Shown: positions 19,770 to 54,747 of the stretch, in pieces | Layout of the letters: each line of letters opens with the position of its first letter | How positions within the stretch are numbered: position 1 is the first letter of the stretch | The notes under the pieces: model-generated | The model's database searches: none | Seen by the model: the letters and a program-made list of their open reading frames with translations, nothing else | What the model was told of the DNA's origin: nothing | NCBI RefSeq assembly: GCF_022601975.1 | Contig: NZ_JAKVIR010000028.1 | Location: forward strand, 1 to 64,000 | Source of the DNA: Pontibacter sp. E15-1 | Lineage (GTDB): Bacteria; Bacteroidota; Bacteroidia; Cytophagales; Hymenobacteraceae | DNA length: 64,000 bases | Reading direction: 5' to 3' | Position numbers and translations under genes: made by a program

Positions 19770-20030
19770 GAGCAATTCCCCTCGTGGGGGTAGGGGCCCT
19801 CTTGGGAGGGTAGGGTCGTTAAGTTCTAACGAAAATTGTCCCCTTGAGGGGACCGCAGGGGTGTAAAGCCAGCGAAAATAACCTTCCGCAAAGAGCAAAC
19901 ACCCCTCTAACTCCCCTCAAGGGGAGAATCGTTTTTCTGCTATATTAAATCTTTACGTGAAGACATGGTGCAAATTCTTAGAACTTAACGGCCCTACCTC
20001 TTGGGAGGGGGAGAGGTAGGTTATTCTGCA
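19770..20030. repeat. MITE-like nested inverted repeat in a 752-bp gene-free stretch
   Basis: The interval 19384-20135 has no convincing gene. Within it, TAGGGTCGTTAAGTTCTA (19811-19828) is inverted at 19979-19996 with one mismatch. Inside lie a second pair built on CCCCTTGAGGGG (about 19839-19852) and CCCCTCAAGGGG (19913-19924) with GGGGTG/CACCCC flanks. Outside are copies of a CTCTTGGGAGGG motif (19800-19810 and 19998-20009). The symmetry suggests a non-autonomous mobile or REP-like repeat; I see no terminal duplication. Confidence 0.5.
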
Positions 20031-23530: not shown

Positions 23531-24847
23531 TTACTTTTCAAGCTCCCGCTCATAGTTCACGGTCAGCAGGTAGAGGGCCTGCAGGTTGTTGAGGTACTCC
23601 ATCTGGGCCATGTTCAGGGCTTCCCAGGCATCGATCACCTCGGGCAGCTGGGCGTTGTTCTCCTCGTAAGAGAGCATGGTCACGTCGTAGTTCTTTGTCA
23701 GGGCCGGGATGATCTTGGTGCGGTAGTTCTCTGTCTGTTCCCGCTTGGCGTTCAGCTCCAGGGCCATGTTGCGCACCATCCCCTGGGCCTCGTTGAGGAT
23801 GTTCTCGCGCTCCCGCAGCATGGCGTCAATCTCCAGGCCCATGGCTTTGGTATTGGCTTTGTACATTTTGCTCGACCATGGCGCAATCGGGATGGAAATC
23901 ATACCCATGGCCGTGAACTGGTTCGGCATCATGCTGTTGCGGGGCGTCATGTGGTCGAAGCGCACTTTAAAATCCGGCTTGCGCTCCAGCCTTTCCTGCT
24001 CCACGCCCAGGCGCATGCTCTCAACGGTGCGGTCGAGCTGGCGGAGGTCGCTGCGGGTGTTGTTCAGGTATACCGTGTCGGCCGCAAGTGGCACCGCGTC
24101 GGGGATGCTGCCCAGGGAGTCGATCTGAAACTGCTGCTCTTTGGGCAGGTTCATGAGGGTGTTGAGCTGCACACGCTGCTGGGCAATCTCATTGCGGGTC
24201 ATCAGCTGCATGTTCTCCACCTCGTGCAGGCGCCCCTCCGCCTTGTAGACGCTGCCCAGGCTCCCCTGACTGTAGGGGTAGCGGATGCGCGCCAGTTTCA
24301 GCATATACGCCATCAGGTCGGCGTTATCCTGCAGCACATCCAGTTTCTTTTCCAGCACGGCCCAGCTGTAGTAAGCGGCCTTGGCCTGGCTGCGGAGCTC
24401 GTTGTAGGTCACTTCCGCCTTGGCAAGCTCAATGGCTGCCCGCGAGTCGAAAACGGCCTGCTTGGCCCGCTGCTTGGCCGGGTTGGGTATGGCCTGCTCC
24501 GCCGAGATCATGAAAGAGCCTTCACGCTCGTCGCTCTCCACGTTCTGGCCCGGATAGGGCAGCATAAACACGCCTCCGCCCACCATGGGGGCCATCCAGC
24601 TCGTTGCCCCCTCGGCATAGGCATCCTGTGCCTTGGCCCGCAGGTCGTACTGCTGCAGCATGGGGTTGTTGCTGCGGATGGCGCTGAGCACGCTGTCCAG
24701 GGGCACGGGCTGCTGGGCCAGGGCAGGGGCGCTAACCGACAGCATGAGTAGCGCAGCCACAGCAGCGGCGAAACATCCGCCTACCCACTTCCGGAGCAGC
24801 GTCTTGAGCGCAGTGGTTTTCAAGGTATATAGCTTAGTGCTTGACAT
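23531..24847 (-). CDS. TolC-like outer-membrane channel of the metal-efflux system
   Basis: A 438-residue outer-membrane factor. A long n-region precedes a signal peptide (cleavage near APALAQ). The family's duplicated helix-strand repeat is visible: SVLSAIRSNNPMLQQYDLRAKAQDAYAEG... and LEIDAMLRERENILNEAQGMVRNMALELNAKREQ, with long alpha-helical coiled-coil stretches. Like CusC it would give the RND pump an exit through the outer membrane. Its start codon lies 14 bp inside the end of the pump gene, so the two are translationally coupled. Confidence 0.88.
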   Translation of the reverse strand: MSSTKLYTLKTTALKTLLRKWVGGCFAAAVAALLMLSVSAPALAQQPVPLDSVLSAIRSNNPMLQQYDLRAKAQDAYAEGATSWMAPMVGGGVFMLPYPGQNVESDEREGSFMISAEQAIPNPAKQRAKQAVFDSRAAIELAKAEVTYNELRSQAKAAYYSWAVLEKKLDVLQDNADLMAYMLKLARIRYPYSQGSLGSVYKAEGRLHEVENMQLMTRNEIAQQRVQLNTLMNLPKEQQFQIDSLGSIPDAVPLAADTVYLNNTRSDLRQLDRTVESMRLGVEQERLERKPDFKVRFDHMTPRNSMMPNQFTAMGMISIPIAPWSSKMYKANTKAMGLEIDAMLRERENILNEAQGMVRNMALELNAKREQTENYRTKIIPALTKNYDVTMLSYEENNAQLPEVIDAWEALNMAQMEYLNNLQALYLLTVNYERELEK

Positions 24848-26729
24848 CGTAGATCTCTAGTTTACCGTGTTTCTTCAATTCATACTGTTTCGTCATCTCA
24901 AACACCACCGGGGTTACCAGCAGGATGTGGATCGAGGAGGTGAACACGCCGCCGATCATCGGCAGCACGATCGGCAGCATCACGTCGCTGCCCACGCCGG
25001 TGGCCCACAGTACCGGGATCAGGCCGAACAGGGCCACCGACACGGTCATGATTTTCGGGCGCAGGCGCTTGGCAGCCCCCATGAAAACATAATCGGACAC
25101 ATCCTGCTTTGTGATGGTCTCGGACGAGTTTCCCTTTGCGTCGGCCAGGTCCTTCATGGCCTCGTTGAGGTAGACCACCATCACCATGGCCGTCTCAATG
25201 GCCAGTCCGAAGAGGGCGATGAAGCCCACCGCCACCGCCACCGACAGGTTGACGCCATAGAAATACACGATAAATACGCCGCCCACCAGCGCAAACGGGA
25301 TGGTGATCAGGTTGAGCAGGGCCTCCTTCATGGACTTGAATGAGAAGTAGAGAATCAGGAAGATGATCACCAGCACCAGCGGGATGATGAGCTGTAGCGT
25401 CTGGTTGGCGCGCACCTGGTTTTCCCACTGCCCGCTCCACTCCAGGTAGTAGCCCTCCGGCATGATCTTGCCCTCGGCGTTTATCTTCTCCATCGCCTCT
25501 TTCACCGTGCTGCCCAGGTCGCGGTCGCGCACGTTGAAGAGCACTGCCCCGCGCAGCTGCGCATTCTCAGAGTTGATCATCGGCGGACCGTTGGTGAAGC
25601 GGATGTCAGCCACAGACGAGAGGGGTATGGTGCCGGAGGAGGTTTCGAGCGGGATGCGCTGAATGCGCTCCAGGCTGTTGCGGTACTCCTGCGCCAGCCG
25701 CACGTTAATGGCGAAGCGCTCGCGCCCCTCAATGGTGTTGCCGATCGTTGCCCCGCCCAGCGCCGACTCCACCGTCATGTTCACGGCGTCTATCGTCAGG
25801 CCATAGCGGCCCAGGGCGTTGCGGTCGATGTCGATCTCCATGTACTTGCCCCCCGTAATGGGGTCCACGTACAGGTCCTTCACGCCGGGCACGGCCTCGA
25901 GGGCCGATTTTACCCGCTCTGACACGGCGTATACCGAGTCGAGGTCCTGGCCATATACCTTCACGCCCACATCGGTGCGGATACCGGTGGCCAGCATGTT
26001 GATGCGGTTGATGATGGGCTGCGTCCAGCCGTTGACCACACCGGGGATCTGCAGCTTCTCGTCCAGCTCCCGGATGATGTCCTTTTTCGTGATTCCCTCG
26101 CGCCACTCTTCCCGCGGCTTGAGCATGATGATGGTCTCGATCATGCTGATCGGGGAGTTGTCGGTGGCGGTGCTGGCGCGCCCGGCCTTGCCCAGCACAC
26201 TCTTCACCTCGGGCACCGACTTGATGATCTTGTCCTGCACCTGCAGGATGCGCTTGGCCTCGGCATTCGACACGTCGGGCAGCGTAACCGGCATGAACAG
26301 GATGGAACCCTCGTTGAGTGGCGGCATAAACTCGGTGCCCAGGCTGAGCAGCATGGGTATGGCCACCAGCAGGGCGAGCACGTTCAGGCCGATGGTGGTT
26401 TTGCGCCAGTTCAGGCACCATTTCAGCAGCGGGCCATACACCCGCTCCAGCCCCCGGTTGATCGGGTTGGCGTTATCGTCCCGGAACTTTCCCTTCAGGA
26501 AGAAGGAGATGAGCACCGGCGTGAGGGTGATCGCCACCACCGCATCCACCAGTAGGATAAAGGTCTTTGTCCAGGCCAGCGGGCTGAACAGTTTGCCTTC
26601 CTGGCCTGTCAGCAGAAACACCGGCAGGAAGGAGGTGATCACGATGATTGTGCTCCAGAACACGCTAGGGCCAACCTGCTTGGAGGCTTTCTCGATGATG
26701 CGGAGTCTGGTTTCTTTATCTAGTTTCAT
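24834..26729 (-). CDS. cusA: CusA/CzcA-like RND pump, C-terminal part of a split gene
   Basis: A 631-residue product equal to the C-terminal 60% of a heavy-metal efflux RND pump. It starts in the TM4-TM5 cytoplasmic loop (MKLDKETRLRIIEKASKQVG), then TM5 onward (STIIVITSFLPVFLLTGQEG), the second porter/docking region (GTEFMPPLNEGSILFMPVTLP, ...GKAGRASTATDNSP) and TM8-12 (ALLNLITIPFALVGGVFIVYF, RLRPKIMTVSVALFGLIPVLW). The N-terminal part is a separate ORF at 27202-28488, with a four-helix-bundle gene between. Together the halves make 1059 residues, the normal size, and nothing conserved appears missing. It has its own ATG eight bases from the inverted-repeat arm, so a functional two-chain pump is possible. 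Confidence 0.9.
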   Translation of the reverse strand: MKLDKETRLRIIEKASKQVGPSVFWSTIIVITSFLPVFLLTGQEGKLFSPLAWTKTFILLVDAVVAITLTPVLISFFLKGKFRDDNANPINRGLERVYGPLLKWCLNWRKTTIGLNVLALLVAIPMLLSLGTEFMPPLNEGSILFMPVTLPDVSNAEAKRILQVQDKIIKSVPEVKSVLGKAGRASTATDNSPISMIETIIMLKPREEWREGITKKDIIRELDEKLQIPGVVNGWTQPIINRINMLATGIRTDVGVKVYGQDLDSVYAVSERVKSALEAVPGVKDLYVDPITGGKYMEIDIDRNALGRYGLTIDAVNMTVESALGGATIGNTIEGRERFAINVRLAQEYRNSLERIQRIPLETSSGTIPLSSVADIRFTNGPPMINSENAQLRGAVLFNVRDRDLGSTVKEAMEKINAEGKIMPEGYYLEWSGQWENQVRANQTLQLIIPLVLVIIFLILYFSFKSMKEALLNLITIPFALVGGVFIVYFYGVNLSVAVAVGFIALFGLAIETAMVMVVYLNEAMKDLADAKGNSSETITKQDVSDYVFMGAAKRLRPKIMTVSVALFGLIPVLWATGVGSDVMLPIVLPMIGGVFTSSIHILLVTPVVFEMTKQYELKKHGKLEIYDVKH

Positions 26730-26736
26730 ATATTAG

Positions 26737-27195
26737 TTTTGAATGAGCGGGTGAGTGAATGAGTGAATTTTATCTGGTAGTATTTTTTCTGGCCTTTGCC
26801 AAAACAGATAAAATCTCAGTCGTTTCTTTTACCAGTGGTGTTGTCGTCAATTTGCTGGTGATGCCAGATTCCTCAAGTAGCTCAAGCCAGAAAATTGTCT
26901 CATCCGCCTCTTCAATCACGATGCTCACTTTTGAATAAAATTCTGCTGCTGACCTTGCGCGGCAAGCAGCTCTATAATTTGCTCCTACTGATGTGGCTGA
27001 GCGCAATAACTGCCTTTTCATGATGTTTGCTTCCTCTGATTTGGGTAAACCTTGGCTAAAGCGAATGACATCGAGCGCAAGTTTTTTGGTGCGCTGGCGG
27101 AATAGTTCAACAAACTCTTCCTTAGGGGTTTTATTTAAATCACTCATGGCTAATCCATTTAAGATTCACACATTCACTCAAACACTCATTCAAAA
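26737..27195 (-). mobile_element. IR-bounded four-helix-bundle element splitting cusA
   Basis: A 459-bp unit. The arms at 26737-26768 and 27164-27195 are inverted copies matching at 28 of 32 positions (core words TTTTGAATGAG, TGAGTGAATG, GTGAAT). Between them lies a single complete ORF (26770-27147) whose stop codon is one base from one arm. The element sits seven bases after the stop codon of the cusA N-part and seven before the start codon of the C-part. There is no transposase. Organisation resembles the intervening sequences of 23S rRNA genes, which carry the same protein family inside a stem. Mobility is inferred. Confidence 0.65.
26770..27147 (-). CDS. Four-helix-bundle protein (S23/IVS family)
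   Basis: A 125-residue all-helical protein of the four-helix-bundle family found in intervening sequences of 23S rRNA genes and related to the Avd protein of diversity-generating retroelements. Marks are KKLALDVIRFSQGLPKSEEA, the conserved IMKRQLLRSATSVGANYRAA, and the acidic helix VSIVIEEADETIFWLELLEES. The helices are rich in exposed Lys/Arg and Glu; the family forms pentamers thought to bind nucleic acid. Here it interrupts the CusA-like pump gene and is flanked by inverted repeats. Its own function is unknown. There is no rRNA or reverse transcriptase nearby, so an Avd role is unlikely. Confidence 0.85.
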   Translation of the reverse strand: MSDLNKTPKEEFVELFRQRTKKLALDVIRFSQGLPKSEEANIMKRQLLRSATSVGANYRAACRARSAAEFYSKVSIVIEEADETIFWLELLEESGITSKLTTTPLVKETTEILSVLAKARKNTTR

Positions 27196-27201
27196 TTTCT
27201 C

Positions 27202-28488
27202 CTATTCCTCCTCCATCCACTTTTTGCTCTTTGCTGCTTCTGCCAGGTGCCGGTAGGAGTTTTCTACCATCACGATGGCGTCGTCCACGATCACACCCAC
27301 AGACAGGGCGATACCCGTCAGGGACATGATGTTGGAGGAAATATCGAAGGCGTTGAGCAGGATAAAGCCGATGGCCACGGAGAGCGGCAGCTGAATGATA
27401 ATGACCAGGGCGCTGCGCCAGTGGAAGAGAAAGAGGAACACCACGACAGAAGCCACGATCATCTCCTCGATGAGGGTGGTTCTCACGGAGCTCACGCTTT
27501 CGTTGATCAGGCCGCTGCGGTCATACACGATGTTGAACTTTACCCCCTCGGGCAAGCCCTTGGAAATCTCGGCCATCTTGGCCTTCACATTGTCAATCAC
27601 CTCGGCGGCGTTCTCGCCGTAGCGCATCACCACAATGCCCCCCACGGCCTCGCCCTCGCCGTTCAGGTCGAAGATGCCAAGGCGGCTCTCGCCCGTCATC
27701 TGCACGGTGGCCACGTCCTGCACGCGCACGGGTATGGTGTTGTTGGTGGTGATGGCGATGTTCTCGATCTCCCCCGCCGACTTCAGGTAGCCGGTGGTTT
27801 TGATGATGTAGCCGATGTCGGATCGCTCAAACTTGCGCCCGCCCGCCTCGTTGTTGTTGGCGCGCACGGCCTGAATCACCTGGGGCACCGTGATGTTGTA
27901 GTAAGTGAGCTTGTTGGGGTCCACGGTAACCTGGTACTGCTTCTGGAAACCGCCGAAGGAGGCCACCTCGCTCACGCCACTCACGTTCTGCAAGGCAAAC
28001 TTCACATACCAGTCCTGCACGGCGCGCTGCTCGCCAAGGTCCATGCCGGGGGCATCCAGGGTATACCACAGCACGTGCCCGACGCCGGTGCCGTCAGGCC
28101 CCAGGGTTGGAGTAACGCCCTCAGGCAGCATGTTGCCAACCGTGCTCAGCCGCTCCAGCACCCGCGAGCGGGCCCAGTACACGTCAGTGTCCTCATCGAA
28201 AATGATATAGATAAAGCTCATGCCGAACATGGAGCTGCCGCGCACATACTTCACCTCGGGCAGGCCCTGGAGGTTAGTGACCAGCGGGTAGGTAACCTGG
28301 TCTTCGATGATCTGGGGGCTGCGGCCCATCCACTCGGTGAAAACGATAACCTGGTTCTCAGACAGATCCGGTATGGCGTCTACCTTGTTGGCTTGCACAG
28401 AATAAAGTCCCCAGCCAAAGAGTATGGCCGAGACGAGCAGCACGAGCACGCGGTTGCGCAGCGAAAAGGAAATGAACTTCTCAATCAT
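27202..28488 (-). CDS. cusA: CusA/CzcA-like RND pump, N-terminal part of a split gene
   Basis: A 428-residue product starting at ATG 28488 (MIEKFISFSLRNRVLVLLVS; the upstream in-frame ATG adds 16 residues). It contains TM1, the porter subdomains PN1/PN2 (DAIPDLSENQVIVFTEWMGRSP, GVTPTLGPDGTGVG, IGYIIKTTGYLKSAGEIENI) and TM2-TM4 with the proton-relay aspartates in GVIVDDAIVMVENSYRHL. It stops at KKWMEEE in the cytoplasmic loop, where intact homologues run on into the sequence found at 26729. Upstream by 161 bp is the HYC_CC_PP gene. A single chain without the second half cannot pump, so activity requires the C-terminal product. Confidence 0.9.
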   Translation of the reverse strand: MIEKFISFSLRNRVLVLLVSAILFGWGLYSVQANKVDAIPDLSENQVIVFTEWMGRSPQIIEDQVTYPLVTNLQGLPEVKYVRGSSMFGMSFIYIIFDEDTDVYWARSRVLERLSTVGNMLPEGVTPTLGPDGTGVGHVLWYTLDAPGMDLGEQRAVQDWYVKFALQNVSGVSEVASFGGFQKQYQVTVDPNKLTYYNITVPQVIQAVRANNNEAGGRKFERSDIGYIIKTTGYLKSAGEIENIAITTNNTIPVRVQDVATVQMTGESRLGIFDLNGEGEAVGGIVVMRYGENAAEVIDNVKAKMAEISKGLPEGVKFNIVYDRSGLINESVSSVRTTLIEEMIVASVVVFLFLFHWRSALVIIIQLPLSVAIGFILLNAFDISSNIMSLTGIALSVGVIVDDAIVMVENSYRHLAEAAKSKKWMEEE

Positions 28489-28649
28489 GGAGAAAGATGT
28501 TTTAAACCAATACAGAACAGAAACAAGCAGCTGCATGACAGCTGTCGGGGAGTGCCTGAAACAGGGGTATGGCCGGGGAATGCGTTAGCGTGTGGACCAA
28601 AAAGGCCACGGGTGGTCAGCATGCCCGGGAGGCACTCCGGTCTGTATGG

Positions 28650-53534: not shown

Positions 53535-53608
53535 CAGGTATAACGGAAACGCAGGTATAAATTTCACTTCCCAAAACGAAATTTATACCTGCGTTTCCGT
53601 TATACTTG
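53535..53608. repeat. 31-bp near-perfect inverted repeat between thioredoxin and apbE
   Basis: The left arm (53535-53565) and right arm (53578-53608) are complementary at 30 of 31 positions around a 12-nt loop. Each arm contains the word AGGTATAA or its near copy twice, separated by CGGAAACGC. The repeat lacks an ORF and a T-run, and a normal terminator already lies just upstream. It may be a REP-like element or a protein-binding/attachment site. Confidence 0.7.
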
Positions 53609-53685: not shown

Positions 53686-54747
53686 ATGCCGCGCTCTCTT
53701 TTTTTACTTCTCCTTTTTATGTGCATGGTCCTGCCACCAGCACGTGCCCAACGACTCCCGACCAAAGAGCCAAACACGTACAGGAAGGTTTTGCTATTGA
53801 TGGGCACCCGCTTCGAGCTGGCAGTTGTTACCCGCGACGAGCAGCGGGGGTGGGAGGCGATAGCGGCGGGCATTACGGAAATAAAACGCATCGAGGCGCT
53901 GATCTCCGAATGGCAACCCACCTCCCAAACCAGCGCGATTAACCGGAACGCAGGTATAAAGCCCGTTGCGGTAGCTTCCGAACTGTATGACCTGATCAGC
54001 CGCAGTAACCGCATTTCTGAGATGACCGGCGGCGCCTTCGATATCTCATTTGCCGCTATCGACAAGGTATGGCACTTTGATGGCTCGATGAAAACCCTGC
54101 CCACGCAAGCACAGGTGGCAGCATCCGTTTCTAAAATCAACTACAGAAACATCATCCTGAACCCGGCAGACCACTCTGTGTTCCTGAAGGAAACCGGTAT
54201 GAAAATAGGCTTTGGGGGTATAGGCAAGGGGTATGCCGCCAACCGCGCCCGCGATGTGATGCGGGAGATGGGTATGGCAGGCGGTGTAGTAAACGCTGCC
54301 GGCGACCTGGTGACCTGGGGCAAACAGGCTGATGGACAGCCCTGGTACGTGGGCGTGGCCGACCCTGCCGAGAAGGACAAGGTGTTCTCGTGGCTAACGG
54401 CAGACGAAACCTCGGTGGTGACATCCGGCAACTATGAAAAGAACGTAACGCTGAATGGCAAGCGGTATTCCCATATCATCGACCCGCGCACCGGGTTTCC
54501 GGTGTCGGGCCTCAAAAGCGTGACCATTGTCTGCGCAAACGGCGAGTTGGCCGATGCACTGGCAACGGCCGTCTCGGTGCTGGGACGCGAGGAGGGATTA
54601 TACCTGATCAACCAACTGAAAGGGGTAGAGTGCCTGCTGCTGACGGACACCGATGAAATGGTGACGTCGGATAACCTGCACCTGCATTTTTACAACAACC
54701 AAAAAAATACTGCTGGCAATACTGCTCAGCCGGTTCCCTTAAAGTGA
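53686..54747 (+). CDS. apbE: FAD:protein FMN transferase (ApbE)
   Basis: A 353-residue exported flavin transferase that attaches FMN from FAD to Ser/Thr residues of extracytoplasmic proteins. The start is ATG 53686 (MPRSLFLLLLFMCMVLPPAR) rather than 53638, because the signal peptide begins there. Motifs: LLMGTRFELAVV, LISEWQPTSQTSAINRNAG, MKIGFGGIGKGYAANRARD (flavin-binding Gly/Lys), NAAGDLVTWG and the C-terminal SHIIDPRTGFPV with the conserved His and Asp. It precedes DUF4266 by 4 bp, which suggests a dedicated substrate in this cassette. No classic Dxx(S/T)GA(S/T) target is evident in the neighbours. Confidence 0.9.
   Translation: MPRSLFLLLLFMCMVLPPARAQRLPTKEPNTYRKVLLLMGTRFELAVVTRDEQRGWEAIAAGITEIKRIEALISEWQPTSQTSAINRNAGIKPVAVASELYDLISRSNRISEMTGGAFDISFAAIDKVWHFDGSMKTLPTQAQVAASVSKINYRNIILNPADHSVFLKETGMKIGFGGIGKGYAANRARDVMREMGMAGGVVNAAGDLVTWGKQADGQPWYVGVADPAEKDKVFSWLTADETSVVTSGNYEKNVTLNGKRYSHIIDPRTGFPVSGLKSVTIVCANGELADALATAVSVLGREEGLYLINQLKGVECLLLTDTDEMVTSDNLHLHFYNNQKNTAGNTAQPVPLK

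Follow-up and report, generated by a model that had tools for sequence, protein, structure and literature searches.

The described systems closest to the locus studied here include the intervening sequences (IVSs) of 23S rRNA genes. In the excerpts of PMC4990558 consulted, an rRNA IVS with an S23 ORF is framed by complementary arms that form a 28-bp stem, the stem is cut by RNase III in vitro, the results are taken to suggest that the IVS protein is not made in vivo, and the S23 protein of Xanthomonas is stated to be a homopentamer. The element in our window (the whole 64-kb stretch of Pontibacter DNA analysed) likewise has an S23-family ORF between complementary arms, but it lies between protein genes, the two halves of a cusA gene, whereas the IVS sits in rRNA. 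No match to Rfam at gathering score, and no rRNA, was found in 20 S23 loci (seven from the window's genome and 13 named loci with labels of other phyla), and the link to rRNA IVSs is drawn from the protein family and the arm-ORF-arm order. Elements of the window type further differ from the described rRNA IVS in their 7- or 8-nt units, their many private arm sequences, and arm mismatches that bear no sign of RNA pairing.

Cyanobacterial STRRs are intergenic 7-nt tandem repeats, and REP/REPIN sequences with their RAYT, as well as MITEs, are small intergenic inverted repeats with autonomous and non-autonomous copies. Unlike REP/REPIN-RAYT systems and MITEs, the S23 elements have arms that are mostly private to each site, and no target duplication was seen. 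The stem P6b of the Nostoc trnL group I intron is built from either of two motifs of 7 nt, TDNGATT or NNTGAGT, whose classes replaced each other repeatedly in evolution; in contrast to the S23 elements, it is a short stem of a self-splicing intron, and the excerpts of that paper make no mention of an S23 gene (PMC4476775). TAACTGA heptamer repeats, which are intergenic 7-nt tandem repeats found also in some Bacteroidetes and Cyanobacteria, repeat a single fixed word in direct orientation and, in the principal genome examined, mostly lie immediately ahead of start codons, according to the parts of PMC4679880 consulted, and S23 or four-helix terms were not found in that text. Among the matches listed for open-licence PMC titles and abstract openings, none linked arms of this kind with S23 genes located between protein genes.

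The window element and its cusA junction

On the minus strand, the window element reads in the order cusA N-half, 5' arm, S23 gene, 3' arm, cusA C-half. The S23 gene (26770..27147, minus strand) encodes a 125-aa protein of the S23/Avd-type four-helix-bundle family, as judged from profile matches and the predicted fold. The upstream host gene (27202..28536, minus strand) encodes the N-terminal half of a CusA/CzcA-type efflux pump (444 aa, TIGR00914 positions 1-427), and the downstream host gene (24834..26729, minus strand) encodes the C-terminal half (631 aa, positions 431-1041). In the element's sense, the 5' arm (27160..27195) lies beside the N-half, 6 nt past its stop codon, and the 3' arm (26737..26772) lies beside the C-half, 7 nt ahead of its start codon.

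An inverted-repeat search of the window gave arms of 41 nt with 83% complementarity (26737-26777/27155-27195), and the best ungapped stretch (26737-26772/27160-27195) scored 23.5, with 31/36 positions complementary. This agrees with the inverted arms around an S23-type gene noticed in the first-pass annotation of the sequence, which had counted 28/32 matches. Among inverted repeats with arms at most 2 kb apart and a loop of more than 12 nt, the pair ranked first in the 64-kb window, with the runner-up at 18.5; one short hairpin elsewhere in the window scored 28.5, above the S23 arm pair. The arms are made of octad words of the GAATGAGT type. We regard the framing of the window's S23 gene by arms as confirmed and beyond chance.

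Other inverted repeats were recorded in the window. A 190-bp unit with GGTAGGGYCGTTAAGTTCTAA ends (19809-19998) has kin elsewhere in the same genome (G000:C1:58753-58942 and G000:C33:23771-23972), and the flanks of its copies repeat 8-10 bp on both sides by eye (e.g., CGCTAGTG at C33), which is MITE-like. A near-perfect 31-bp palindrome with a 12-nt loop (53535-53608) contains ACGCAGGTATAAA and has an inverted partner at 53940-53960; this 13-mer occurs four times in 864 kb, on both strands.

The window's S23 ORF matched TIGR02436 (1.9e-24, 86 bits; curated cut-off 24) and PF05635 (5.2e-17, 62.4 bits; curated cut-off 33.8), and its structure, predicted as a monomer, is a four-helix bundle with a mean pLDDT of 94. 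The best structural matches were 2rld_B (Z 18.6, rmsd 1.5, 111 residues aligned) and 2gsc_D (Z 16.2). The 2rld and 2gsc entries hold five chains apiece, and we infer from these solved relatives that the S23 protein would form a pentameric ring. A PADLOC search with five proteins gave no match to a defence family. To our knowledge, S23 is not a known nuclease.

The model also shares its fold with Avd of diversity-generating retroelements (DGRs; PF22296, phrog_3206), matching the Avd chains of the DGR ribonucleoprotein and 4dwl at Z 13.0-13.8. A designed (de novo) bundle in the same list reached Z 13.5, level with the Avd chains, and the aligner itself cautions that helical bundles below about Z 13 may share a common arrangement. 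In profile searches, the window's own S23 had no Avd sequence match, and two other S23 proteins of the same genome showed weak similarity to bAvd (5e-7 and 2e-5, both below its curated cut-off), and one of these two matched phrog Avd at 2e-9. The link to Avd therefore leans on these two other proteins and on the statement that PF05635 resembles Avd, which is made in the part of PMC10053308 consulted. A further difference is that DGRs have a reverse transcriptase, whereas the window's genome, a 55-contig draft, has no RVT_1 match.

The host pump gene consists of two genes (24834-28536), cut between TIGR00914 positions 427 and 431. Close matches of the N-half in 37 Pontibacter genomes (at least 84% identity) all had a frame of 429-469 aa (25/25); three of these matches gave no locus for reading the junction, and in the 22 distinct junctions read the N-half ended in a stop codon every time (22/22). 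Seven of the 22 junctions contained arms and S23; six contained a different payload, a hairpin running from TGTCATTTCGA to TCGAGATGACA; three held arm remnants or other short sequence; and six were short, with 7-27 nt. By eye, arm remnants mostly lay alongside the hairpin in the six junctions with that payload (L044, L046, L047, L048, L053, and L057), so that the payload between the arms seems to be replaceable at cusA. We also surveyed CusA in 198 genomes of the phylum (E of 1e-60 or better, with up to 16 candidates scored per genome). Among the matches listed, the other homologues with at least 57% identity all had a short N-half frame of 425-481 aa (14/14), and the 16 with a frame of more than 1000 aa were all at 51-54% identity. 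Outside the genus, the six cusA junctions read by eye had no arms (13 loci, of which one had no C-half match and six lay unread on the reverse strand).

Since close homologues are split with or without an S23 insert, the split of cusA predates the element, and splitting of the gene by this element was ruled out; an older insert may have been the cause. The first-pass annotation had placed the element inside an mRNA that it would divide. Its seat between two cistrons stands, but no gene is interrupted, as the cusA halves are separate in close relatives, and the proposed division does not hold because cusA was already split in every close homologue seen.

S23 arms across genomes and their unit length

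The window's genome has seven S23 genes, and S23 was present in 51/59 genomes of its relatives (its own included) and in 114/148 genomes sampled across the phylum. We read 116 S23 loci, of which seven were from the window's genome and 109 from relatives (the best-scoring matches listed, mostly of the same genus). These contained 117 S23 stretches, with none in locus L140. Enough flanking sequence was available for 115 stretches, in 40 junction groups (39 once two cusA groups were merged), and 106 stretches with an ORF of 270-480 nt made up the intact set. To score arms, the upstream flank was compared locally with the downstream flank in reverse complement; the best match was taken, and the cut-off was 12.

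Arms reaching the cut-off were found around 87/106 intact S23 genes of the genus and order, with a mean score of 17.3 within elements compared with 7.7 for arms paired across sites, where 4.4% of 10464 pairings reached it. The cut-off was reached by 0.5% of 2120 shuffled controls and 0.1% of 843 offset windows. Among small genes other than S23 that were called in 864 kb of the window's genome, none of 148 reached it (best 11.0), in a run that called just one S23 gene, with a score of 12.0. Among the 30 best loci of a search across the phylum, a set in which some ORFs were mis-called, arms were found in 14/30 (offset windows, 0.8% of 239). A third set of named loci consisted of the best 80 of 573 matches to a narrow query, and 51 of the 79 that were usable reached the cut-off (offset windows, 0.6% of 816). 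The armed named loci include records labelled, for the most part as MAGs, Verrucomicrobia (two), Planctomycetales, Chloroflexi, Acidobacteria, Magasanikbacteria, and Deltaproteobacteria, and records labelled Nitrospira, Desulfococcaceae, and Nostoc scored below 12. It should be noted that the genus/order, phylum, and named sets overlap by a few Pontibacter loci, and that an arm pair at the cut-off was absent in 19/106 intact elements and 28/79 named loci. The architecture is real and widespread: the class of elements proposed in the first-pass annotation is borne out by strong enrichment of arms around other S23 copies in the three sets.

The arms are mostly built of four to five near-tandem units of 7 or 8 nt, and their autocorrelation peaks at 7, 8, and 14. 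A period was assigned to 145 of 180 elements (arm score of at least 13 and periodicity of at least 0.45 at a lag of 4-11); it was 7 in 73 elements, 8 in 69, and another value in three. When S23 subfamilies were set by simple motifs, under labels of our own, the period was 7 in 63/64 genus/order elements of the NIAEG, LRSGTS, and unclassed groups and 8 in 24/25 of the YRAACR and LLKSG groups. The named loci, all kin to the window's S23 type, had period 8 in 44 cases and 7 in nine. On the S23 protein tree (142 rows), the period changed five times compared with 47.5 times after shuffling (0/500 shuffles as low), in a test that asks about clustering of the label alone and that near-copies favour. 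Because the changes on the tree are few, part of this pattern is accounted for by plain co-inheritance of the gene with its arms. Arm length tracks the unit, with a median of 30 nt for the 7s and 38 nt for the 8s (p 5e-8), corresponding to 4.3 and 4.75 units per arm.

Even where species share a site, their words differ, yet inside each element the words agree. At the junction between a thiolase gene and an acyl-CoA dehydrogenase gene (site 0), with 20 elements of which 19 fall in one S23 clade, the words are of the AGATTTT, GACACAA, GTATCAC, or GACAAAG type depending on the subclade, all about 7 long. By these comparisons, unit length follows the S23 lineage while the letters change.

Arm pairing in DNA or RNA

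Arms of different word types aligned poorly with each other, and covariation of the two arms was judged by swapping arms between species. At the thiolase/acyl-CoA dehydrogenase site, own arms scored 16.4 and swapped arms 10.1, and none of 2000 permutations was as high. Across the 11 sites with at least three elements, p was below 0.05 at five (sites 0, 2, 3, 4, and cusA) and at none of the other six. At cusA (n = 7), own arms scored 22.6 and swapped arms 16.1 (exact p 0.026), and the words fell into two blocks by type. Since one S23 nested in the cusA clade comes from a different junction, the element may have reached cusA on two occasions, and the thiolase/acyl-CoA dehydrogenase site is the cleaner case of co-change. 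Synonymous sites of S23 were near saturation in most pairs compared, and arm pairing that was not kept would therefore have decayed. The dN/dS of S23 was 0.02-0.13 in the three of four compared junction groups with estimable dS, which indicates purifying selection there; at cusA, dS was saturated, with pN of 0.04-0.16 and pS of 0.82-0.87.

Mismatches within the arms offer a view of the level at which pairing is kept. An RNA stem tolerates G.U pairs, and if the RNA stem proposed in the first-pass annotation were what is maintained, more G.U than A.C would be predicted in the sense strand. We counted 123 G.T and 106 A.C mismatches in 85 elements and 65 and 85, respectively, in 49 named elements, or 188 versus 191 in the pooled set. 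Sign tests taken site by site (15 to 9 and 13 to 21) also showed no lean. As G.T and A.C mismatches are equal, the pairing is apparently kept strand-symmetrically, at the DNA level. No other single result weighs as heavily against the RNA reading, or as heavily in favour of a strand-symmetric process, as this equality.

The reading we favour, tentatively and as somewhat short of probable, is that of a transposase-free, mostly vertical S23 element whose Avd-like ring would act on the arms, with their repeated units, in the form of DNA hairpins. The S23 gene and its two private, mutually complementary arms would form one small element, usually seated at the stop codon of a co-directional upstream gene, and S23 would be expressed off the transcript of that gene. 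On single-stranded or hairpin DNA, the ring would bind the unit array at roughly one unit to each subunit and hold the arms together, so that replication or repair could copy one arm from its partner. Such copying would keep the arms alike and in their 7- or 8-nt step while the letters drift, and very rarely the arms and gene would be carried to a new intercistronic junction. Three things suggest that the ring would act on DNA arms: the rule on unit length, the symmetry of mismatches between strands, and the pentamer seen in relatives with solved structures.

Several observations weigh against this DNA-level reading. A loop of 380 nt is long for hairpin-templated correction, and the mean arm has 4.3-4.9 units, not exactly five. 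The swap test gave p below 0.05 at 5/11 sites only, and 19/106 elements and 28/79 named loci have no arm pair at the cut-off. Arm pairs also persist, in smaller numbers, in two genomes that have no S23. On the protein side, a designed bundle equals the Avd Z scores, and the window's S23 has no Avd sequence match. Finally, the reading accounts for the sense bias described below, which points to a role of the transcript, just through retention of expressed copies.

From codon scores, the upstream gene ran in the direction of S23 at 29/31 junction groups called (8/39 uncalled) and in 101/106 elements called (9/115 uncalled), and both neighbours were on the S23 strand at 20 junction groups. This bias speaks for the first-pass view of the insert as part of an mRNA. 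At site 9 (four elements), S23 was antisense to both neighbours, and the arms still scored 15-22. The 5' arm opened a median of 1 nt from the upstream stop codon (76 elements with an identifiable stop at the end of a long frame) and within -6 to +12 of it at 18/26 sites. From translated starts, we take the neighbours of S23 genes to include mraY-murD, GH3-dxr, coaD, radC, scoA-scoB, and tldD.

The sense bias suits the idea, carried over from 23S rRNA IVSs, that the element is an intervening sequence of mRNA whose arms fold into a stem that RNase III cuts, freeing the S23 RNA and parting the cistrons. The protein family and the arm-ORF-arm order are shared with the rRNA IVS as given in the excerpts of PMC4990558, and RNA folding of the window element predicts that the arms pair (z -3.7), with 0/100 shuffles equally stable. 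Against it stand the equal numbers of G.T and A.C mismatches (188 and 191), where an RNA stem would tolerate G.U, and the antisense elements of site 9, which keep their arms nonetheless. We consider this idea unlikely as an account of the element; RNA processing is possible for some step, but it leaves the upkeep of the arms unexplained.

A reading to which we give somewhat less credence still places the ring on RNA. TRAP binds triplet repeats, and an S23 ring could similarly bind units in the nascent mRNA of an operon and set downstream expression, with any movement being incidental. The tie between unit length and protein lineage, the purifying selection on S23 in place, and the opening of the 5' arm at the stop codon would all fit such a regulator. 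For regulation, one arm would suffice, yet two are kept; the arm mismatches are strand-symmetric, and the S23 genes adjoin unrelated genes.

Arm pairs without S23 and the movement of elements

Empty sites, for which the first-pass annotation had suggested looking, exist in relatives at three junctions: cusA, thiolase/acyl-CoA dehydrogenase, and mraY-murD. The latter two were compared across 37 genomes, with 30 loci each and seven genomes each without a locus. The thiolase/acyl-CoA dehydrogenase junction held an insert of 421-476 nt that opens like S23 elements in 18 genomes, 35-39 nt in eight, and other inserts of 152-185 nt in four, two of which retain an arm word. The mraY-murD junction measured 437-462 nt in seven genomes, 4-34 nt in 21, and intermediate lengths in two. 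The short junctions may never have been occupied, or they may be losses. Comparison by eye of the three junctions with and without the element revealed no target duplication, in spacers too diverged for short duplications.

Under a strict filter, 13 arm pairs without S23 were found in 864 kb of the window's genome, nine between co-directional genes, three between convergent genes, and one between divergent genes. Since the strict scan recovered just 2/7 known S23 elements, this number is likely a lower bound. Several of these pairs share words with S23 elements of the same genome. Their orientation, as read from G-rich words, was dropped because an inverted repeat reads alike on both strands. 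In one further observation (G000:C3:144886-145203), 55-nt arms of GACACAAGAC words, 2 nt past a stop codon, enclose a 208-nt payload without S23, and these words match the S23 element at the thiolase junction of the same genome.

If arms were generic 7/8-nt intergenic repeats kept by slippage, with S23 genes merely inhabiting them, such S23-less pairs would be expected, as would the arm remnants with other payloads at cusA; heptamer repeats also occur in other bacteria with S23 unmentioned in the parts of PMC4679880 consulted. This view has difficulty with the period, which follows the S23 lineage, and with the 0/148 other small genes so framed. In addition, the S23-bearing genome of the window had 15 arm pairs in 864 kb (block shuffle, 0), or 17.4 per Mb, compared with four and one in 400 kb each of two Pontibacter genomes without S23, or 10 and 2.5 per Mb, although these numbers are small and two of the four pairs were simple hairpins whose loops measured 4 and 8 nt. 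We hold the generic-repeat view to be quite improbable. Under the favoured DNA-level reading, the S23-less pairs would represent copies that have decayed or are non-autonomous.

A single S23 clade, whose arms are of the GAATGAGT type, occupies three different junctions, which we take to be cusA, the position before coaD, and a position that follows a DUF62-like gene and precedes an hscB-like gene. Gene and arms thus seem to travel together, rarely. Across 37 genomes, the S23 count was unrelated to the RVT_1 count (rho -0.05) and weakly related to the Y1_Tnp count (rho 0.32, p 0.05). S23 was present in 6/6 genomes without a Y1_Tnp match and in 19/20 genomes without an RVT_1 match, the window's own being among the 20. 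By co-occurrence, neither a Y1 transposase nor a reverse transcriptase is needed, in keeping with the first-pass claim that the element lacks a transposase, and a requirement for either in trans was rejected. Movement of S23 as cargo of a MITE or another unit by a REP-type Y1 transposase or reverse transcriptase in trans, for which the weak Y1_Tnp correlation speaks, is very improbable given these genomes, arm sequences that are different at most sites (with words in common at some), and no target duplication recognised by eye.

Separately, one Pontibacter genome (G002, contig C1) had 14 RVT_1 matches, many of them equal-scoring, where the window's genome had none.

TIGR02436 proteins are common, and the family names we found assign them no role outside rRNA. 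The arms offer a candidate substrate for S23 together with a measurable rule, one unit length per lineage. In its boldest form, which we regard as possible but doubtful, the proposal is that S23 rings read, and together with replication or repair in effect rewrite, fixed-unit DNA arrays with one 7- or 8-nt unit per subunit; gene and arms would then make up a transposase-free, multi-phylum element in which spacing, not sequence, is inherited, and rRNA IVSs would be those that landed in rRNA. The arms may thereby join three loose ends: the intervening sequences of rRNA, heptamer repeats whose origin is unexplained, and the ring that Avd forms in retroelements.
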